A stretch of DNA of 36,432 bases, taken from a virus. The notes under the pieces are model-generated. The model was not told the DNA's origin, searched no databases, and saw only the letters and a list, made by a program, of their open reading frames with translations. The position numbers were made by a program, and so were the translations under genes. Shown here one piece after another: positions 7,267 to 36,432 of this stretch (position 1 is its first letter; the number at the start of each line of letters is the position of its first letter). The stretch covers positions 1 to 36,432 of IMG/VR virus record IMGVR_UViG_3300009194_000003; one strand, given 5' to 3'.

Positions 7267-9464
7267 TATTCAGCCCCTGTGATCGTTTGAACGCCGACGA
7301 TACGGCCCGACTCATCGCGCACAACCTGCTTAGGCGCAGTCACACCCGCTGCAATCTCTTGCTGCCCAGCGGCAACACCGCCGATTAACTGGCCGAGCAT
7401 GGCGATAGCTGAACCCATCTGGTTATCTTGCTGCATAACCTGATCGCCAGTCTCGCGCTGCGTCATAATGGCCTTGATCGCCTCTAGCGCATCCTTAGCG
7501 CGCTGCTGTTCCGCTTTAGTGGCCTGAACTTGGTATTCCAGTTCCAGCTTGGCACGGTCTAGCTCTAGCTTCTGACGCTCCATTTCGAGCTTCATCATGG
7601 CTTGCATCTGGTCGCTTTCGAGCTTCTCGCGCTTAGCCTGCAAGTCCATCTCAGCCTTCATCTGCTGCGATTGTGCCATGGTGTCGGCCTTGTAAGCCTC
7701 AACTTGTGCAAGCATCTCAGTAGCCTTGGCGTTAGGGTCTTCGGCTGGGTCTTGCTGTTCCATTTCGTAATCATTCGGCACGGGCAGCCAGAACTGTGAC
7801 GAATCCTTAAAGCCGGACAACTCAGCGATCTTCGCCATTGTGTTACGAATCTGCCCAAGCGTTACGATGCCGTTGTTCGCGCCAAGTGCTGAATAGGCCT
7901 CAGACTGCTTCTCGTACTGATACTGAAGCATCGCCATGCGCTCTTGGATTGTGCTTGAGCTAATGGACGCGTTAACGACTACATCCATCTCGCCCCAGCT
8001 TGTGGGGTCAATAGGCACGAACTGATCTCGCAGGCGAATGATCTTTGCTTTGTCTTGGTGCGTAGTGATTAGATCAAGCAGAATGCCGTACATGCGCTTT
8101 AAGCCAGAGGCGAAGTTGCGGCAGATCATTTCGATCTGGCCTTGTCCTGCCTGAATGGTAGCGTTTACAGCTTCGCGGGTTGCGTTAGTCAGCATGTCAG
8201 CATTAACACCCATAGACGCGCCGCTAATGCCTGTACGCTGCTCTTTGACCTGGCGCATGTAGTCCAGCACCGGGAATGCGCTTGAGCCGGTGAACTGCTG
8301 AGCCATTGGAATAACGCCATTCGGTGTGCGCATACGAATGATTGCGCCAACCTCGTTGTTCAGCACATCTTCGATGTTGCCATCACCCTCAACAACACCC
8401 ATGCGCGGGAAGATCGTCTGCGCTAAGGAGTCCAGCGTCAGACGCATAACCTGCGAGTTAATGCGCTGAATGTCGCTCAGGCGGTCGAACATGCCCTCAC
8501 TGAAGAATGCGTGCGCGTTAGGCGACATACTGAGCTTAAAGAACGGGCAGTCGTCTACTGGCTCGATCTTGAGAATCTTGTAGCCTGGCCCTGCGGTACA
8601 GACCTTGACCATCTCGGCAATGCCATCGCCGTCCATGTCGTACTTGGTATAAGCCTCGACATAGAGAACGCGGCGCATGTCCTCGTTTACGGATTCGCCA
8701 TTAGTGATCGTGTTGTATGGCTGGCGCTCAATTAGCTCGGCGTTAGTCGTTAGCTCGTTGTCGCCTGTGTATTCGCGCATTTCGTCACGGTCGTAACCCA
8801 TTTCAACCAGTTCGTTTACGGTCAAATGGCAGCGGTGTGCGACGATCTCGGCATCTTCAAAGCAGGTGGCACGACGGTCAATCAGGAATTGCTCAGGCGG
8901 AATCGCTTTAACGCAGAACTCTTGCTCGCGCTCTTTCTTCTTCAGGATAGCGTCATATGTGCCATCCTCGCGCTGACCAACCTTTAGCTCACCATCCTCG
9001 GACGCAAGCAGCATTAGCTCTTCTTCACCAAGTCCAGTGAATTGCTTAATGCTGACTTCCTCTTCCTCAGAGTACACAGCCTTGCCAAAGCCATCGCCGT
9101 GCAGCAGCGCGTCTAGTGCAATGCTGTGGAACTCGTTAAACCAGTCCGAATCTTCCAGAATCCAGTTCACATAGTCCGTAGCCTGCTCAGCCGCTGGCGT
9201 GTCGTTAGGCATGCGCGGCATAAACTCAACCATCTTCTCGCCACCGAAGAATGTGCGCTTAATGCTTGGCAGTACCGTCTGGATAACATCGTGGACATCG
9301 CGGGATACGACCTTGCTGCGGCCATCCTGCTCATCGCCAAACAAGTCACCACGGTAGTAGCGCATAGCACTGGCGCGAGATGGGCTGATCTCTTCGTCAA
9401 TGTAGCTGACCGCATCACTCAGCATTGCGCCTAGTGTGTATTCAAAGTCTTCGGTGATCTTCAT
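7266..9464 (-). CDS. Portal protein
   Basis: The 732-aa protein matches large podovirus portals. It opens MKITEDFEYTLGAMLSDAV, then RYYRGDLFGDEQDGRSKVVSR, VLPSIKRTFFGG and ALLHGDGFGKAVY (wing and stem core), and SNAHAFFSEGMFDRLSDIQR-type sequence leads to the hub. Residues of about 570-680 form a long Met/Gln/Lys-rich coiled coil, consistent with a portal barrel. It follows TerL and the ART-like gene in the packaging order, and its ATG overlaps the previous stop (ATGA). Confidence 0.9.
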   Translation of the reverse strand: MKITEDFEYTLGAMLSDAVSYIDEEISPSRASAMRYYRGDLFGDEQDGRSKVVSRDVHDVIQTVLPSIKRTFFGGEKMVEFMPRMPNDTPAAEQATDYVNWILEDSDWFNEFHSIALDALLHGDGFGKAVYSEEEEVSIKQFTGLGEEELMLLASEDGELKVGQREDGTYDAILKKKEREQEFCVKAIPPEQFLIDRRATCFEDAEIVAHRCHLTVNELVEMGYDRDEMREYTGDNELTTNAELIERQPYNTITNGESVNEDMRRVLYVEAYTKYDMDGDGIAEMVKVCTAGPGYKILKIEPVDDCPFFKLSMSPNAHAFFSEGMFDRLSDIQRINSQVMRLTLDSLAQTIFPRMGVVEGDGNIEDVLNNEVGAIIRMRTPNGVIPMAQQFTGSSAFPVLDYMRQVKEQRTGISGASMGVNADMLTNATREAVNATIQAGQGQIEMICRNFASGLKRMYGILLDLITTHQDKAKIIRLRDQFVPIDPTSWGEMDVVVNASISSSTIQERMAMLQYQYEKQSEAYSALGANNGIVTLGQIRNTMAKIAELSGFKDSSQFWLPVPNDYEMEQQDPAEDPNAKATEMLAQVEAYKADTMAQSQQMKAEMDLQAKREKLESDQMQAMMKLEMERQKLELDRAKLELEYQVQATKAEQQRAKDALEAIKAIMTQRETGDQVMQQDNQMGSAIAMLGQLIGGVAAGQQEIAAGVTAPKQVVRDESGRIVGVQTITGAE

Positions 9465-10231
9465 TCTTGATTACCCAATAGGCCAAGCAATGGATTGATG
9501 TTAAGGAGGCCGCTATTTCCCATTATACCACCTTGTAGGCCTAAACCTGTCGGATCATAGCCATACTCAGCAAGTGAGTTAGCGTCAGTCCAGACGTGCT
9601 TGGCAGGAACTTTCTTTTCTATAATTTCGTATTCTTGACCTTGCTGGCCCTTGATTACGTTATCGCCGTGATATTTTGCGTATTCCTTTGATGGCGTAAT
9701 CCAATCGCCAGCAGTGATTTCACTCTGAATACCCTTTGGAACCGCCCGATAAATAGTAACCTCGGCATCAGGCTTATTCCTTACGCGCCGCGCAACATCG
9801 AGCGATTGACGCTCACCAGGACTATTTGATCCGTAATACTGAAGGCCTTTTGGGGAATACACATCATCTGGATACATGTTGCGCGATAGGTCATTAAGCG
9901 GGGCGCCGTACTCTTTGTCTGGCGCGCTGTGACTTCCTTGGTAACTAGGCTTTGCCACATTCAGAACATCACCAATCAAGCCGCTTGCCTTGCCCTTGGT
10001 CGCTGCACCGATCAATCCAGTAGCGACGCGCCCAACAGGAATAACATCAGATGCCGCACTAACTGCGCTTTTGTAGTCGCCAGAGCGCACGCCTTGCTGA
10101 ATACGATTGAGCGCATCAGCAGTGCCAAGACCAGGGATCATCGCAATCTTATCGCCAAGCAAGCCTCTAGCCTGCCCTAGTAATCCTTGGAACTGCTCTA
10201 AGCCGGTTCGTGGAAGCGTCGTGATTGCCAT
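9461..10231 (-). CDS. ADP-ribosyltransferase-like phage protein
   Basis: The 256-aa protein sits between TerL and portal, with AAGGGA 8 nt before its ATG. Residues 55-90 are Ala/Gly/Val-rich and may be a membrane-active or packing segment. Residues 150-230 resemble the compact ADP-ribosyltransferase-type domain found in phage and mobile-element polyvalent proteins: VTIYRAVP (Arg162), GDWITPSKEYAKYHGD (Ser181), KKVPAKHVW and DANSLAEYGYDP (Glu222). These could form an Arg-Ser-Glu triad. The C-terminus is Gly/Leu-rich. It may be a virion-carried effector, as MuF-linked toxins are, or a structural relic. The fold call is from motif recall and no activity can be inferred with certainty. Confidence 0.6.
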   Translation of the reverse strand: MAITTLPRTGLEQFQGLLGQARGLLGDKIAMIPGLGTADALNRIQQGVRSGDYKSAVSAASDVIPVGRVATGLIGAATKGKASGLIGDVLNVAKPSYQGSHSAPDKEYGAPLNDLSRNMYPDDVYSPKGLQYYGSNSPGERQSLDVARRVRNKPDAEVTIYRAVPKGIQSEITAGDWITPSKEYAKYHGDNVIKGQQGQEYEIIEKKVPAKHVWTDANSLAEYGYDPTGLGLQGGIMGNSGLLNINPLLGLLGNQE

Positions 10232-12193: not shown

Positions 12194-13267
12194 TTAGTCA
12201 AGCATTCCTCGAAACACAAGCTCATTAGCAAATTCATATTCAGGGTAGTTGGCTCGTCTTTCTTCTGGCGACATCGTGCGCCTGGATTCAGCAAGTCTCG
12301 CCTCAGACTCTCCCGCAAGTCGCTGATACATCTCGAAAGGGCTATATGCTTTAGTGCGGTTTCTAAGTCCATACTCTTGCGCCTGCTTAGACATTGTCTC
12401 ACGGAGTTTTGCTCCTTGGCTCATTGAGTCGCTGAGAGCAAGGCTTCTAAGAGAAGCCCTAGGAATCATCTCATCAAGACCAGCACCTCGATAATCTGAT
12501 TCCAAAATCTCTGAAGCCTTACTTAATGGTATCCCTTTGTTTGCAGATAAGCGTTCAACTTCCTCACGCCACTTTATAACAGGAAATACAGCCTCAACTG
12601 CTGTTTGATTTTGGAAATCCCTTGGGGAGCCTCCCTGAGCAAAGCCCTCAGTTTCTTGAGCAACGTGCTGTAATTCATGGACTGCTGAACTTGTCTTTGT
12701 TTGGCTTTTTGGGTTGTATACTAGGATTGTCTCACCTGACTTTGTTTTGCCAACAGCGGCGCTGCCAGGAATATCATCCTGAATAGAGCGAGGCACTAAT
12801 CCATATGCTTTGCGAAACTCAGGATGAATCGTTGAAATATCCATTTTGCCAGAGCCGTAAGACAGAACATCTGCGCCACGGTCATCGATCTCCCAACGCA
12901 TCTTGCCATCAGGCCCACGAAACCAGCCTTCTTCACCCCATACCTTTCGTGGGTCGTCTCCAGCAGAAAGCCGTGACTCTGCGCGTTTTAGCGCCTCAAG
13001 GTCAGCGCCTTTAGCTTTAGCTCCCGCGAATATCTGACGTGGAGATACTGATCCAAGGTTAACGCCGGTAAGTTTCTTTACGATAGCTCCACCTGGAATA
13101 AATCCAGCTAATGCGCCTGCTGCCTCACCGTAGTTTCCTTGCTGAGCAGCTAGTCTCGCATCATCTGCTGCGAGTAGACCGGATACATACGGCACAAAAT
13201 CACCTACACGAAGCCCCAATGCTCTTGGCTTGCGTAATTCGTCATATGCAGTATCAAGTAATCCCAT
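12194..13267 (-). CDS. Zinc-peptidase-like (HELQH) phage protein
   Basis: The 357-aa protein starts at the ATG at 13267 behind a perfect AAGGAG. A longer frame exists upstream but runs through a terminator. Residues 26-66 are Ala/Gly-rich (DFVPYVSGLLAADDARLAAQ; GALAGFIPGGAIVKKLTG). A central part has GWFRGPDGKMRWEIDD and ISTIHPEFRKAYG. SAVHELQHVAQETEGFAQGG at 194-213 carries a zincin HExxH (His197, Glu198, His201) with Glu207 as a possible third ligand. This resembles domains attached to large polyvalent proteins of phages and plasmids. It lies first in the late operon, upstream of TerS, and may be a moron or a virion-carried effector. Confidence 0.65.
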   Translation of the reverse strand: MGLLDTAYDELRKPRALGLRVGDFVPYVSGLLAADDARLAAQQGNYGEAAGALAGFIPGGAIVKKLTGVNLGSVSPRQIFAGAKAKGADLEALKRAESRLSAGDDPRKVWGEEGWFRGPDGKMRWEIDDRGADVLSYGSGKMDISTIHPEFRKAYGLVPRSIQDDIPGSAAVGKTKSGETILVYNPKSQTKTSSAVHELQHVAQETEGFAQGGSPRDFQNQTAVEAVFPVIKWREEVERLSANKGIPLSKASEILESDYRGAGLDEMIPRASLRSLALSDSMSQGAKLRETMSKQAQEYGLRNRTKAYSPFEMYQRLAGESEARLAESRRTMSPEERRANYPEYEFANELVFRGMLD

Positions 13268-13300
13268 GTCTAACTCCTTCTGGCTGCTCAATTTTAGCAC

Positions 13301-13327
13301 AAAAAAAATCCCCGCGTGAGCAGGGAA
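13301..13327 (-). terminator. Intrinsic terminator
   Basis: On the minus strand, TCCCTGC TCAC GCGGGGA forms a 7-bp stem (one G-U) with a 4-base loop, followed by eight T. It would end transcripts from the exported-protein gene or from the candidate RNA before they reach the HELQH gene. CCCCGTG at 13363-13357 can pair with the CGCGGGG arm over 7 bp, a possible antiterminator. Confidence 0.8.
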
Positions 13328-13647
13328 ATGGTCAGTGTTGATTCCGACCGAGCGACCACGGGGTGAGCGTGATTGGTTGATGGCGCTGGGGGCGAAAGTC
13401 CCAGTTGTATAGCCAGGCTCGCGCAAGATTCACCATCAAGTCAAAGACACTGAAGCATCCAGATTTCAGGTCTGGTGCTGGCATTGTCGCAATGCCCTTG
13501 CTTGATGAGCCGGTTTGGTTTCGATGCCGGAACACCGTGGGCTGAGTAACGACGGATAACGACATTGACACCGACGATTCCGTTACATCTGCCCTTTGCG
13601 CTGCATCGGCAATTAAGCCTGACTTCGCGCTGCTAGTCCAACCCAGC
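13301..13647 (-). ncRNA. Candidate untranslated regulatory RNA (C4/CI-like region)
   Basis: This gap of almost 390 bp holds no convincing gene. On the minus strand it lies between a TATAAT box and an intrinsic terminator. It contains several hairpins, such as GGCATTG-CGA-CAATGCC at 13479-13495 and CTGGG/CCCAG at 13385-13403. The frame through the terminator reads PAHAGIFFVL, a string I associate with Ash/Icd-type frames that overlap the C4 and CI antisense RNAs of P1- and P4-like elements. A 79-codon frame (13332-13571) exists but has no ribosome site. The RNA call is inference. Confidence 0.4.
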
Positions 13648-18465: not shown

Positions 18466-18805
18466 CCGCCGCAATGCTATGACCGCGCTCGTTAATGCGC
18501 CTGATGGCATGGAGGTAATCATTCAGCAGCGCAAACGTACTCTGCCGCAGAATGACAAGCTACATGCGGTCTTGCGCGACATATCGGAGCAGGTTGTCTG
18601 GTATGGCGAGAAGTTAAGCGTGGATGAATGGAAGATCATTCTGTCAGCGTCTTGGAAGAAGCAGAGTGTAAAGCGTGGCATTGATGGCGGCTTTGTCGTG
18701 ATGGGCGTATCGACTAGCGGAATGACTAAGGCGGAGTTGTCAGAGCTAGTTGAACTGGCCTACGCCTTTGGATCAGAGCAAGGAGTAAAGTTTAGTGCGA
18801 ATTGA
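18431..18805 (+). CDS. ninB: NinB-like recombination protein
   Basis: The 124-aa protein has family hallmarks: VIIQQRKRTLPQNDKLHAVL, DISEQVVWYGEKLSVDEWK, IDGGFVVMGVSTSGMTKAEL and ELVELAYAFGSEQGVKF. Lambda NinB (Orf) helps the recombinase load on SSB-coated DNA. It overlaps the Ref-like gene by 35 bp and the methyltransferase by 11 bp, so the start could be the second in-frame ATG, though the N-terminal sequence fits the family. Confidence 0.88.
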   Translation: MTKLAFVLNETSRRNAMTALVNAPDGMEVIIQQRKRTLPQNDKLHAVLRDISEQVVWYGEKLSVDEWKIILSASWKKQSVKRGIDGGFVVMGVSTSGMTKAELSELVELAYAFGSEQGVKFSAN

Positions 18806-19466
18806 AATAGGAAAGGCCACGCTGTACTTAGGTGATTGCCGCGAGATTCTGCCGACGCTGCCAAAGGTTGACGCTGTTATTACTGATCCGCCTTATGGCC
18901 TTGGCGACAAGTGGAAGGGCGGTGGCGGAGGGGCAAAAAGCTCGTGGAAGTTTGAGCAAAGCGAAGCTATGGCTTGGGATATGGAGGTTTCAGACGCTGT
19001 AAACGATCTACCTTGCCTTGCCAATGAAGTTGTTATATGGGGCGGTAATTACTACTCTCTGCCGCCAATGCGTTGCTGGTTCGTGTGGGATAAAAAACAG
19101 CCTGATACATGGACGACTGGGCAGTGCGAACTAGCTTGGACAAATATCAATAAGCCCGTTCGAGCTTTTCGCATGGCTCAGTGTGAGTTAGCTAATGAGG
19201 GTGAAAAATACCATCCAACACAAAAGCCGCTGGCGCTAATGCAGTGGTTCTTAAAATGGATTGAAGGACAAAAAATACTCGACCCATTCATGGGCAGCGG
19301 AACAACCGGAGTAGCCGCCGTGCAAATGGGTCGCTCATTCATCGGAATTGAGCGCGAGCCGAAGTATTTCGACATTGCCTGTCGTCGCATTGAGGACGCG
19401 CAACGCATGAGCGATATGTTTGGGCATGAGCCTCAAGCTAAGCCTGAGCAGGAGTCGCTACTGTGA
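18795..19466 (+). CDS. DNA N6-adenine/N4-cytosine methyltransferase
   Basis: The 223-aa protein starts with GTG at 18795. The catalytic motif DPPYG is at 31-35 and the SAM-binding DPFMGSGTTG at 163-172, the beta-class order. GGGGGAKSSW may be a flexible recognition segment. HPTQKPLALMQWFLKWI precedes motif I as in this class. No restriction enzyme is nearby, so it is probably an orphan phage methylase for avoiding host restriction. Confidence 0.9.
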   Translation: MRIEIGKATLYLGDCREILPTLPKVDAVITDPPYGLGDKWKGGGGGAKSSWKFEQSEAMAWDMEVSDAVNDLPCLANEVVIWGGNYYSLPPMRCWFVWDKKQPDTWTTGQCELAWTNINKPVRAFRMAQCELANEGEKYHPTQKPLALMQWFLKWIEGQKILDPFMGSGTTGVAAVQMGRSFIGIEREPKYFDIACRRIEDAQRMSDMFGHEPQAKPEQESLL

Positions 19467-26255: not shown

Positions 26256-26408
26256 TTATGTCTGATGTTGCGTTGTCGAATTGTAGCATTCGGCTGTGCG
26301 AATATCATGCGCCCAAAATATCAAAACCAAGCCTGCCACTACTGGGCCGATGCGCCAATACCACACAAGGCGCTTGCGAAGCCCTCGCAGATAATTGCGC
26401 CATGTCAT
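26256..26408 (-). CDS. Lysis-cassette membrane protein, 50 aa
   Basis: ATG at 26408 in an ATGA overlap with the endolysin stop; GGAGAG upstream. A very basic head (MTWRNYLRGLRKRLVWYW) precedes one membrane helix (IGPVVAGLVLIFWA) and a short outside tail with one Cys. It may be an antiholin or a minimal spanin part. Its function is not decided by the sequence. Confidence 0.6.
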   Translation of the reverse strand: MTWRNYLRGLRKRLVWYWRIGPVVAGLVLIFWAHDIRTAECYNSTTQHQT

Positions 26409-26821
26409 GCAACTTTCTCTCCGGCCTGTAACTGAGCCAAGGTCTTGCCGCCCGTGTATTGGAAATGTGCGGTCTCCTTGAATCGCTTCCAATCTCCGGC
26501 CCATTCAAGCCCAGCAGCCTTGCCGATTGCGCCGATACGCGCCCACAGTGCCGCGTCATTCCACACAGCCTTTCCATTCACAATCGGCACAACGTCAATC
26601 GCGCAGCGATGGTTATGCCAAGACTGGCCTGCTTTCGCATTGGTAACGATCTTGCCTTGCAATGTGCGGCCTTGGGCGTATAGCGCGTTTTGCGACTCAG
26701 CATCGCGGTAGGTGCTAGTCACCAACAGATCAATGCCCTGCTTCTTAGCGGCGGCAAGGAACGAGTCCACTTTTGTGCGGACGACTGGCAACAGTTCTTT
26801 TAAGTCGCGTGAGTTAATCAT
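26405..26821 (-). CDS. Endolysin, M15-type L-alanyl-D-glutamate peptidase
   Basis: The 138-aa protein has the zinc peptidase motif SWHNHRCAIDVVP (His69, Asp76; the usual SxHxxGxAxD with Arg in place of Gly) and WKRFKETAHFQY with Glu116 and His119. It would cut peptidoglycan stem peptides, as the T5 endolysin does. There is no signal peptide, so release depends on the holins. GAGG lies before the ATG. Confidence 0.9.
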   Translation of the reverse strand: MINSRDLKELLPVVRTKVDSFLAAAKKQGIDLLVTSTYRDAESQNALYAQGRTLQGKIVTNAKAGQSWHNHRCAIDVVPIVNGKAVWNDAALWARIGAIGKAAGLEWAGDWKRFKETAHFQYTGGKTLAQLQAGEKVA

Positions 26822-26890: not shown

Positions 26891-29800
26891 TCATCTGCAC
26901 GACTCAATAAACGCGATCTCTGCCGCACTGGAGTAGCATCCGGTTAGGTGTCCAGCCCCACCGACCAGATCCACTGTCACGTCACCACCTGCTGCGTTTA
27001 CTGTCGTCTGAAAGTTGGTTGCCTGCGATGATGGAATTACCGTGTCAGATGAACCATGGCGCAGGTAAATCGGCGTTTTAGCAAAGCGCGAGGCATTCAA
27101 GTTTGGATCACGGTCTTTCAAGGCCGTCGCAGTACCAGCAAAAGGAATGACGACGATATCGTTTGCTGCGTAAGTTCCAGCAGCCCATGCGTCTTTCCAG
27201 ATGTAAGGCGCATCGAAGTACGCAGCACTTGGCGGAACACTCCGGTTACCAATCCGCTTCCAGTTAGTCGCTGTCAGGCTTGGCGTCTCAGTGTTGCTAC
27301 CCACCAGCGATACATACCAGTCGCCGTGTCCGCGCTGAATGATCGCCGTGAAAGCAGCCAGTGCAAAGCTGGCTGTCAGGTCTGTCACGCCGCTAATGCC
27401 GACAATACAGAATGGGCGTTTGCGCTCATCAGTCAAATGCGTCAGCGAGTTAAGCAAGCCCATCGACTCACCATAAAGGCAGTATTTGTCAAAGTTCCAG
27501 TAGCGAGTAATCCAATCCATGAAGCCGTAGCGGTACTCCATGCCGGTGCGTCCAGCCCAGTTGCTGCTTGTTGGGTTTGCGTAGCCTTTGCCAGTGGATG
27601 CATTGAAAGCGGAGTTATACATCCCTTGAATCAAGCCGATAGCATAGCCTTTCAAGTACAGGCCAAGAAGCGTTGCACTGTTTTGACCGCTGTTAATTGC
27701 AGACTTCACCTCGTTGGGGTGCATCTGAAACACCACCGGCTTATCGGTACTTGGACGGAATCGTGGAAGAACCAAGAACGGCACCTCCGTAGGATTAGAG
27801 AAAGCATTCGCGCTGGACTTTAAAATGTGCTGATCTTTGTTAATGCCAATCACTGCTGGCGTGCCAGTTCCATCTGTGTAGCTTTCATAACCGCCGACAG
27901 TGGCAAACACGCCTGTAAGTCGCGTATTTGCGTTAGCAAAGGTAAACTCAAGCGCATTCAAGTAACCAGCGGATGATCCAAAAGTTGGAATGGAGCCAGT
28001 GTAAATATGTGTATCAGGATCAACGCGAGCAAACAGCTTGTTAGTTGAATCCTGAAATGCTCCTAGCGTAATGCCACTACCAGCACCAGTCAGAATACTT
28101 GTCTGCATAGACTGAGTAATCGTGCCAAGGCCATCGCACGCCACAGTGAACCAAACAGTCGTTCCGTCTACTACGTCAGGGAATCCGGCTTGGTTAAGGA
28201 ATACTGAAAAGCCATAGTTTGTGCTGATATTACCAGCCCTTACATTTACCCCTGCAATGCCTGCATGTGATGTGTTCACAGAATCGCGCAACTTGAATGT
28301 CGTATTGTTTGAGCCTGCGCCGATTACAAAGGTAAGCGTGAACTGCCAAGGCTTGGTATTATCAAGATCAAAGGGCAGCGCAAGCGTAGCTGAGCCGGTA
28401 ACACCATCAACGGCAGCAGTTAAGCCTCCCGAACCATGGACAGCCACGCCCTGCGCTGTCGTCAGGTCAGCAAGTGCAAGCGATGTTTTGCGGTATGTGC
28501 GTTTTCCGTTTGGCGCTCCAACAGCATCTAGGCGCTGGATGTTGAGCGATTGATTAACTTCAAGCGAAAGGAAACGTGCCAGCGTCTCACCGCTGAACTG
28601 GCTGTCGTCTACCTCGACGCCGGTGATGGTAAAAGCGAGTTGATAATCTCGCGCGCTTGCCGTGGCGGTAAAGCTCACATCATCCAATGCAGTAGTCGCT
28701 GCGTTAAAGAAATAACTACCAGGGCCACCAGAGGCGGCATAGGACAGCGCAGCGGTATTAGCCGCACAGACAAAGCCTACCCAATCCCCGACTTCTAGCG
28801 TCACGTCGCCAAACGGATCAGATACCGTATTGTTGCCTAGCACTAGGGTAGGCGTTGTGCGGGCAACATCGTCAAATCGGTTTGGGGCTTGAACAGGACG
28901 CGCAGCAACGATAGTTAGCGATGCACCGCGCAAGCTAGCAATGTTCACATCCAGCGTTGACACGCGGCCTCGGCGCGTCACTCGCTGCAATAAATACGTC
29001 CCGTTATTGAACTCGGTAGTGCCGCCTGCGCCAACTGTGTAATTGTAGGGGTCGTTAAAGGTCAGCTTAGTCAGCGGCGTCACCTGGCCGGTTAAAGCGC
29101 CAACGCTGGCAGGACGGCCCAAGAACGTAACAGCAGTTGTACCTAGCGTGATTGAGCTTTGCTGATTCGCAAACGACCAGCCGGTGTATAACGTGCCGCC
29201 AGTAATTTGCGTGCAGCTTCCTGATAGTGTCGGATCTGTGTTTGCTAGAACGTGGCGCGTCAGCACGAATGGGCTAAGCGTCGTCAGCGTATACCAGCCA
29301 TTTTCAAATTGATTTGTCTGGTCTTTTACTAGCAAGTTCTGGCCAACAGCCAATGTCACACCGTCTTGCGCGCCTAACGCACCAGCGCCAGTCAGCGTAC
29401 CAGCGCCGTTGTTGTAGGTCGCTGTGATGTTGGCAGTGCTGGCTGCTGCGGCAGTGAAACCACGGTTAGTCTGAAATGCCACGTTAGCGGCAGCAAAAGA
29501 AGCAAAGCCGCTGGCTTGATCGCGGGCTGCTTCGGCTGCGGCTTGTGCGGCCTCGGCGTTTGTTTCAGCTAGTTCGGCGTTTACTTCAGCAAGCTCGGCG
29601 TTAGTCTCGGCGAGTTGTGCTGCGATGCTTGCAGCAGTCGCTATGTTAGCTTGCTCAGTAGCGATTACAGCCTGATCTGCACCGGTAACAATATATGCTG
29701 AGTCTCTTGCGGCCTCGGCAGCTATTCTTGCTTCTAATGCATTTGCTGCATCAACACTGGCGGCGGCCTCATACTCAATGGTCGTCGCCTCTGAGTTAGC

Positions 29801-30001
29801 AGCGGCGGCAGCGCTTGATGCGGCGCTTGCAGCACTAGCACCAGATTCATTAGCAAATCCTTGCGCTTGAGAAACACTACTATTGATTGAATCAATAGCT
29901 GGCTCAACAAGATCATACTGATCGGTAATTGTGCGAAAGTTTTCGTCTAGCTCAGCATTAGTTAGCCTTGAGCCTTTCACAAGTCGATAGGTGATAGTCA
30001 T
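26891..30001 (-). CDS. Tailspike with C-terminal alpha/beta-hydrolase
   Basis: The 1036-aa protein begins MTITYRLVKGSRLTNAELDE, a tail-fibre attachment start. Residues 40-170 are an Ala/Glu coiled coil, residues 180-300 share the ITATYN...LLVKDQTNQFENGWY module with the tail fibre, and long beta-rich parts follow. From about 750 on the sequence is that of an alpha/beta-hydrolase: nucleophile elbow YGESMG (Ser846), RHGSSDTVIP (Asp986) and GGAGHLTG (His1018). This suggests a spike that removes ester groups, such as O-acetyls, from capsule or O-antigen. Secreted polymer hydrolases share this fold; the substrate is not known. Confidence 0.82.
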   Translation of the reverse strand: MTITYRLVKGSRLTNAELDENFRTITDQYDLVEPAIDSINSSVSQAQGFANESGASAASAASSAAAAANSEATTIEYEAAASVDAANALEARIAAEAARDSAYIVTGADQAVIATEQANIATAASIAAQLAETNAELAEVNAELAETNAEAAQAAAEAARDQASGFASFAAANVAFQTNRGFTAAAASTANITATYNNGAGTLTGAGALGAQDGVTLAVGQNLLVKDQTNQFENGWYTLTTLSPFVLTRHVLANTDPTLSGSCTQITGGTLYTGWSFANQQSSITLGTTAVTFLGRPASVGALTGQVTPLTKLTFNDPYNYTVGAGGTTEFNNGTYLLQRVTRRGRVSTLDVNIASLRGASLTIVAARPVQAPNRFDDVARTTPTLVLGNNTVSDPFGDVTLEVGDWVGFVCAANTAALSYAASGGPGSYFFNAATTALDDVSFTATASARDYQLAFTITGVEVDDSQFSGETLARFLSLEVNQSLNIQRLDAVGAPNGKRTYRKTSLALADLTTAQGVAVHGSGGLTAAVDGVTGSATLALPFDLDNTKPWQFTLTFVIGAGSNNTTFKLRDSVNTSHAGIAGVNVRAGNISTNYGFSVFLNQAGFPDVVDGTTVWFTVACDGLGTITQSMQTSILTGAGSGITLGAFQDSTNKLFARVDPDTHIYTGSIPTFGSSAGYLNALEFTFANANTRLTGVFATVGGYESYTDGTGTPAVIGINKDQHILKSSANAFSNPTEVPFLVLPRFRPSTDKPVVFQMHPNEVKSAINSGQNSATLLGLYLKGYAIGLIQGMYNSAFNASTGKGYANPTSSNWAGRTGMEYRYGFMDWITRYWNFDKYCLYGESMGLLNSLTHLTDERKRPFCIVGISGVTDLTASFALAAFTAIIQRGHGDWYVSLVGSNTETPSLTATNWKRIGNRSVPPSAAYFDAPYIWKDAWAAGTYAANDIVVIPFAGTATALKDRDPNLNASRFAKTPIYLRHGSSDTVIPSSQATNFQTTVNAAGGDVTVDLVGGAGHLTGCYSSAAEIAFIESCR

Positions 30002-35898: not shown

Positions 35899-36432
35899 CT
35901 ATACCCATGCTCTAATAACTAAGCGCCAATCAGCATTGGTTACTGCGACATCAGCACCAGTTGCAAGGTTAATCAGTGAGAATGTTGTGGATGTGTTGCC
36001 GAATCGGTAAATGATGTTTGTATCATCACTTGCAATAGCAACGCCACGAGATGCGCCAAGAGCTTGCAAGTTAATATAGATCGGAACCACTTGTCCTGAC
36101 GTGTAGCCATTGCTTGTGTTGATACACACCAACTCAGCAGTAATCAGCCTTGGAATCTGGCCTAGACCATGCGCTACTGTTGCGCCAGCCGCTGCTGTAA
36201 TGGTGATCTGTCCTGAGTCAAAAAAGCGCTGAAGCCTGCCTTGCTCACGCAGCTTCTTGGATGTAATCGCCTCAAGGTCATCAGTTCCGGCAGTCACTGT
36301 TGCGGCGTCGGCAACGCGCAAAGTTCCGCGAATAGATTCACCTGCTTGGCTTGTTGTGCCGCCATCTGCTGTAACGGTGAGGCCGGTTATAGCGCCGCTT
36401 GCCGCTACTGTTGTTGCAGTAACAGCCTGTAA
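35899..36432 (-). CDS. Tail fibre protein, C-terminal part (continues from left edge)
   Basis: This is the end of the 361-aa fibre whose N-terminus is at 1-675; the last 123 bases repeat that copy. After the shaft, TITAAAGATVAHGLGQIPRL followed by ITAELVCINTSNGYTSGQVV forms a beta-rich tip domain seen at the ends of short phage fibres. The stop is 3 bp before the nozzle start. A TTG at 36321 is in frame but is internal, not the true start. Confidence 0.85.
   Translation of the reverse strand, partial: LQAVTATTVAASGAITGLTVTADGGTTSQAGESIRGTLRVADAATVTAGTDDLEAITSKKLREQGRLQRFFDSGQITITAAAGATVAHGLGQIPRLITAELVCINTSNGYTSGQVVPIYINLQALGASRGVAIASDDTNIIYRFGNTSTTFSLINLATGADVAVTNADWRLVIRAWV
36310..36432. 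repeat. Right copy of 123-bp terminal repeat
   Basis: Identical to 1-123 base for base. It marks the overlap at which the circular genome was opened. Confidence 0.9.

Follow-up and report, generated by a model that had tools for sequence, protein, structure and literature searches.

A podovirus tail-fibre gene predicted to end in a classical serine alpha/beta-hydrolase domain

We analysed a stretch of viral DNA of 36,432 nucleotides (IMG/VR record IMGVR_UViG_3300009194_000003, hereafter the window), from a virus known solely from environmental sequence. One of its genes encodes a protein that probably acts as a host-recognition fibre, in which an N-terminal dock and a stem would carry a serine alpha/beta-hydrolase tip that hydrolyses an ester of a host surface polymer (probability about 0.68). 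The gene, its catalytic residues, the fold family, the fibre setting and the exchange among relatives were read from sequence and structure prediction, and the features are collected in Table 1.

Table 1. Features of the fibre gene and its neighbour (window positions; residues are those of the fibre protein).
Feature	Position	Strand	Basis
40-aa ORF directly upstream that overlaps the start of the spike gene; also present in L006	29998..30120	-	PHROG 2423, function unknown
Tail fibre/spike gene with predicted C-terminal alpha/beta-hydrolase, 1036 aa	26891..30001	-	ORF and motif positions
Residues 1-40, conserved N-terminus and probable anchor to the virion	29882..30001	-	82.5% identity to L006; 11 codons left in L005
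Residues 41-180, Ala-rich, probably coiled-coil stem	29462..29881	-	Weak phrog_13980 tail-fibre match
Residues 181-295, small domain	29117..29461	-	phrog_30390, 2647, 27782, 17264
Residues 296-735, middle part	27797..29116	-	No convincing family or PDB sequence match
Residues 736-1036 (735-1036 in the text), predicted alpha/beta-hydrolase domain	26894..27796	-	Pfam, AF2, structure matches, hhalign
Residues 761-764, HPNE at the place of the relatives' HG(G) oxyanion motif	27710..27721	-	Alignment
Residues 843-848, YGESMG nucleophile elbow, Ser846	27458..27475	-	Motif, alignment
Residues 891-953, insertion modelled with low confidence between Ser846 and Asp986, possible cap	27143..27331	-	Spacing, AF2
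Residues 982-990, HGSSDTVIP, acid Asp986	27032..27058	-	Motif, alignment
Residues 1015-1021, GAGHLTG, His1018	26939..26959	-	Motif, alignment

The sequence-only reading had placed a 1036-aa ORF at 26891-30001 without giving a strand. This ORF is real; it lies on the minus strand and fits the window coordinates exactly, and the plus-strand reading of the same stretch is riddled with stops. An exact direct terminal repeat of 123 bases (1-123 and 36310-36432) indicates that the record probably represents a complete genome (about 36.3 kb), with the spike gene uncut. Judging by its ends, the genome is probably circular or circularly permuted, and a second fibre gene, encoding about 361 aa after removal of the repeat, extends on the minus strand from position 675 past the ends to 35899. 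The portal, adaptor and major capsid protein matched Pfam SU10 models far above the cut-off, and the portal was 30-41% identical to those of environmental and LUZ24-like podoviruses among the 25 of 305 matching records listed. By these matches the phage is classed as a podovirus with SU10/LUZ24-like head genes. The spike gene sits between virion/ejection-type genes and an M15 endolysin.

Elsewhere in the window, a 256-aa protein is encoded between portal and terminase (9461-10231); its residues 94-228 matched PHROG 2579 (ParB C-terminal domain, E 2.4e-34), and no Pfam match was found for it. Near the terminase, a 410-aa protein (12194-13426) harbours an LPD23 domain, named for large polyvalent proteins (65.8 bits, cut-off 27), and an N6/N4-type DNA methylase (PF01555, 79 bits) is encoded at 18795-19466. 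Scans with Rfam and for tRNAs gave no matches, and a promoter/terminator scan gave nothing beyond what was seen in shuffles.

Five close relatives (L002 to L006) match at 80-88% in the neighbouring gene, and two of them, L005 and L006, reach the spike locus. At the same place in L006 we found a shorter gene of 393 aa, of which the first 40 aa are 82.5% identical to the spike and the remainder is unrelated; the gene following it has a tail-protein match. In L005 the flanking genes are alike on both sides and the spike is missing. What is left of it (L005:8886-8927) is a remnant of 13 codons, 11 of which align with the spike start, followed by a stop, and a phage lysozyme ORF comes immediately afterwards. 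L005 also lacks the 40-aa ORF upstream of the spike, and from its sequence this locus looks like the loss of the whole fibre cassette. The lysis enzyme differs as well, an M15-type peptidase in the window (26405-26821) versus a phage lysozyme (PF00959) in L005 (8918-9370).

Since the N-terminus was kept and the rest swapped in L006, a stub was left in L005, and fibre domains lie upstream of the hydrolase, we regard the protein as a receptor-binding protein with an exchangeable tip. The comparison with L006 and L005 revealed the features by which such proteins are recognised, namely a conserved N-terminal anchor, a C-terminus exchanged among relatives and a place in the tail region. From knowledge of such proteins, we infer that it would form a homotrimer and be located on the virion.

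Judged by its sequence, the N-terminal part is a tail-fibre stem. Residues 40-198 weakly matched the tail-fibre family phrog_13980 (E 2.3e-4). According to PHROGs, the small domain that follows also occurs in further tail-fibre proteins, in head-decoration proteins and in unnamed phage proteins, and it shows a weak likeness to the other fibre of this phage group (30% identity, E 0.015). Residues 296-735 gave no convincing match in Pfam, PHROGs or PDB sequences; specifically, no pectin-lyase-like beta-helix was detected there with Pfam or PDB sequences, and no beta-propeller with Pfam. The protein had been called a tailspike in the sequence-only reading. The receptor-binding fibre or spike setting stands, but no beta-helix was found, and tail fibre with an enzymatic tip is the better description. 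The GC content of the hydrolase domain (0.51-0.58) resembles that of the other genes, so that there is no sign of recent import; the first 40 codons have a GC content of 0.40.

The catalytic motifs YGESMG, HGSSDTVIP and GAGHLTG, with Ser846, Asp986 and His1018 as the proposed triad, were all found at the residues claimed. Their order in the fibre tip, a GxSxG nucleophile elbow followed by the acid and then by the histidine, is that of the superfamily, and the three residues are invariant in 18/18 aligned sequences. Shuffling the C-terminal 302 residues 100,000 times produced the ordered set (GxSxG, 80-200 residues, HGxxD, 20-45 residues, GH) once, and among 50,000 shuffled versions of the full-length protein it appeared 5 times. 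A less strict S/D/H pattern was common (9,040 of 100,000 shuffles), and the motifs alone are therefore weaker evidence than the profile matches. A degenerate DNA pattern of YGESMG was matched by 7 viral contigs, all of which encode other proteins, and inspection or BLAST revealed no alpha/beta-hydrolase among them. YGESMG by itself is not diagnostic.

The alpha/beta-hydrolase proposed for the C-terminus was borne out by family profiles, by profile alignment and by a model of residues 735-1036. The Pfam model PF02230 (Abhydrolase_2) matched with 24.1 bits in the whole protein and 28.6 bits in the domain (gathering cut-off 23), the best stretch spanning just profile positions 149-200 of 217. The dienelactone hydrolase, Hydrolase_4 and Peptidase_S9 models all scored under their own cut-offs, and the weak NCBIfam matches were esterase models far under the cut-off. 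No match to an SGNH/GDSL family was present in the Pfam, PHROGs and NCBIfam lists for either the protein or the domain, in agreement with the claim that the enzyme is not of the SGNH type. With the single phage sequence, phmmer returned two gut acetyl-xylan/carbohydrate esterases (6xyc/6tkx, E 5e-4), the sole PDB sequences with E < 0.01.

To obtain bacterial hydrolases, we used residues 972-1024 as bait (a two-row alignment) against GTDB contigs; 22 of 60 stretches were confirmed, all of them short matches. A GxSxG was found in 20 of the 22, and after L058, L061 and L066 were dropped as partial or outlying, 17 hydrolases formed a profile from which the phage sequence was excluded. The single phage sequence aligned to this profile in hhalign with a probability of 98.4% (E 8.8e-15, 222 columns). 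When the bait segment was removed (residues 735-979), the match still reached 86.7% (E 4.4e-6) and ran through the nucleophile elbow. As negative controls, the middle part of this fibre and the fibre that stands in its place in L006 reached 0.1% and 0.2%, respectively.

The structure prediction that the sequence-only reading had proposed as a check gave a hydrolase fold with structural matches at Z of about 20. With an 18-row alignment, AF2 modelled the domain with a pTM of 0.72 and a mean pLDDT of 67; pLDDT exceeded 80 in most ten-residue blocks over the last 65 residues and was below 50 at residues 795-819 and in most of 891-953. A single-sequence model of residues 735-1036, made with no hydrolase alignment, reached a pLDDT of 35. 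A model built on an alignment of known hydrolases is not independent evidence of the predicted fold, and because the alignment steers the model, the profile test is the stronger evidence. The best PDB structure match was the C-terminal esterase LC-Est1 (3wyd; Z 20.0, rmsd 2.2, 181 aligned), alongside S9-type hydrolases (Z 18-20), Lip_vut4 (6nkf; Z 19.0) and 6tkx/6xyc (Z 18.5/18.3); the Foldseek and VIA lists contained mainly S9 and esterase entries, and families beyond those listed may match as well. LC-Est1, Lip_vut4 and 6tkx/6xyc share the fold but are non-phage proteins by their PDB titles, with 16-18% identity and no fibre. On profile and model evidence, we assign residues 735-1036 to the alpha/beta-hydrolases and not to the SGNH family.

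Among predicted viral structures (BFVD), the best match was an esterase of Arthrobacter phage Seahorse (694 aa, A0A3G3M533, TMq 0.63), which indicates that long phage proteins with an alpha/beta-hydrolase fold exist. The esterase/lipase of Siphoviridae sp. ctBLh2 (557 aa, A0A8S5S3A2) also matches this fold. Both are long phage proteins, but identity is just 16% and 11%, respectively.

By sequence, no relative of the hydrolase domain as part of another phage fibre was found in INPHARED or IMG/VR. In tblastn searches of INPHARED, neither the whole protein (E 1e-5) nor the domain (E 1) gave a match, and the last 229 aa at E 10 returned 22 records, the best at E 2 and none convincing. Two of these (L044 and L045) hold free-standing hydrolase ORFs; the other 20 belong to one T5-like group (E 4-10), many annotated as receptor-binding proteins. 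No relative of the domain emerged when IMG/VR was scanned with the domain, the full-length protein or either of two alignments, a single-domain query of GTDB contigs returned none, and plasmids gave 2 weak local matches. Genomes were matched in 3 of 8 cases at E 0.01 (8 of 22 covered) and in 3 of 398 at 1e-5. The whole protein matched 2 of 300 genomes at 1e-5, in one case through the fibre domain (211-307); none of the genome matches spans the full hydrolase domain. When standalone hydrolases were used as queries against INPHARED, L062 and L049 matched solely unannotated faecal contigs (2 and 5 records, respectively), and L066 matched 64 records, 52 of them from Mycobacterium phages. The one L066 match that we examined, Redno2 gp92, adjoins the repressor and lies outside the tail region.

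The phage domain departs from the aligned hydrolases at two places. At the oxyanion strand, 17/17 relatives have HG versus HPNE in the phage protein, which therefore lacks the relatives' glycine. Moreover, Ser846 and Asp986 are 140 residues apart, whereas the spacing is 48-97 (median 84) in the 20 hydrolases, of 22 fetched, in which a GxSxG was found; a large share of the extra length lies where AF2 confidence is low. Two PHROG tail-fibre families matched at residues 885-920 (E 0.06 and 0.17), no more than a hint, and a reading of residues 862-930 as a binding module found no usable match in PDB sequences or phage records. That the insertion (about 881-953) is a tail-fibre binding module grafted into the enzyme as a lid is an unlikely reading; if it were true, recognition and catalysis would share one site.

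Without the relatives' glycine, catalysis could be changed or lost. The hydrolase might then be dead or nearly so and act as a lectin-like binder that holds an acylated sugar without cleaving it, the more so if the low-confidence insertion (891-953) covered the pocket. The HG/HGG motif after strand 3 is, however, not universal in the superfamily, and the oxyanion donors are main-chain groups, for which glycine is not required. All three catalytic residues and both elbow glycines were kept despite divergence elsewhere, which would be unexpected if catalysis had been lost, and we consider such a binder unlikely.

The nature of the bond that is cleaved needs a similar weighing, as the same list of structural matches holds peptidases, lipases and sugar esterases and the fold thus does not give the substrate. 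An S9-type peptidase or amidase that cleaves a protein or a peptide polymer at the cell surface would agree with the many S9 peptidases among the best structural matches and with the weak match of residues 926-1018 to a prolyl oligopeptidase family protein. Against this, Peptidase_S9 (PF00326) reached 20.0 bits versus a gathering score of 22.6, whereas Abhydrolase_2, an esterase family, passed its cut-off. Furthermore, S9-like sequences weigh on both the alignment and the model because of how these were built, and a PDB profile search with the hydrolase alignment accordingly returned mostly S9 enzymes, as expected from its make-up. Upstream of the domain, no Pfam match hinted at a beta-propeller, and a peptidase appears improbable. 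Lipases and a PETase-type hydrolase among the structural matches, together with virion lipases predicted earlier (PMC5380687, as cited there), could point to a lipid (acyl chains of LPS or membrane phospholipid) or a polyester instead of a sugar ester. Nothing further points to a lipid substrate, and the two PDB sequences with E < 0.01 are carbohydrate esterases; this substrate class seems very improbable to us.

On the sequence and model evidence, the tip most likely hydrolyses an ester on a surface polymer of the host. We infer this activity, its substrate, the place in the virion and the effect on host range as follows. Residues 1-40, which were conserved across the swap, would dock the fibre to the virion, and the Ala-rich stem and the small domains, supported in part by profiles, would project from it. 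The tip, formed by the last 300 residues, would be a serine alpha/beta-hydrolase with the predicted triad Ser846-Asp986-His1018. On contact with a cell it would bind the surface polymer and hydrolyse an ester, most likely an acyl (acetyl) ester of capsule or O-chain, through an acyl-enzyme at Ser846. Removal of the ester would let the virion approach the membrane and would favour hosts that bear the modified polymer.

Such an activity has parallels in SGNH-type deacetylase fibres. As reported in PMC13123978, two SGNH fibres of Klebsiella prophages were active on p-nitrophenyl acetate, and gp63.1 of coliphage G7C is cited there as a deacetylase. These are likewise receptor-binding fibres with a terminal esterase domain, for which removal of acetyl groups with the chain left uncut has been proposed (PMC13123978), as we propose here. 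Unlike them, the phage domain has the GxSxG-D-H arrangement of a classical alpha/beta-hydrolase. Virion-associated lipases were predicted, and not validated, in Cellulophaga and Pseudomonas phages (Pires et al. 2016, cited in PMC5380687); there too, an ester hydrolase is said to belong to the virion. In Gordonia cluster DV phages, an esterase/lipase/hydrolase (gene 4 of DoobyDoo) lies in a variable region (PMC11955846). It resembles our case as an exchangeable ester hydrolase inside a structural gene region but is not described there as a fibre tip, and the hosts are Gram-positive.

The enzyme class had been called less usual, which is a fair description. DepoScope screened INPHARED proteins with folds that included the alpha/beta-hydrolase, and the 984 hits of its training set comprised beta-helix, propeller, toroid and TIM barrel only; in its benchmark, 4 of 26 false negatives were assigned to the alpha/beta-hydrolase fold (PMC11326577). 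In one report, even the SGNH domain is termed an alpha/beta-hydrolase fold (PMC11823257), which blurs counts taken from the literature. Within the literature on phage fibres or spikes with hydrolases, esterases and lipases, covered mostly below the depth of the full text, we found no experimentally shown tail fibre with a classical alpha/beta-hydrolase. Esterase fibres are already known, mostly of the SGNH type; the predicted classical alpha/beta-hydrolase tip appears to be what is new here.

Enzymatic receptor-binding proteins help to set which hosts a phage enters, and most of those described are beta-helix depolymerases or SGNH esterases. With a classical alpha/beta-hydrolase fibre tip, the set that phages exchange would gain another enzyme class, which a current depolymerase finder is prone to overlook. 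The tip lies at a locus where close relatives bear another tip or none, which points to tip exchange, and it may trim the surface coat of the host before infection.
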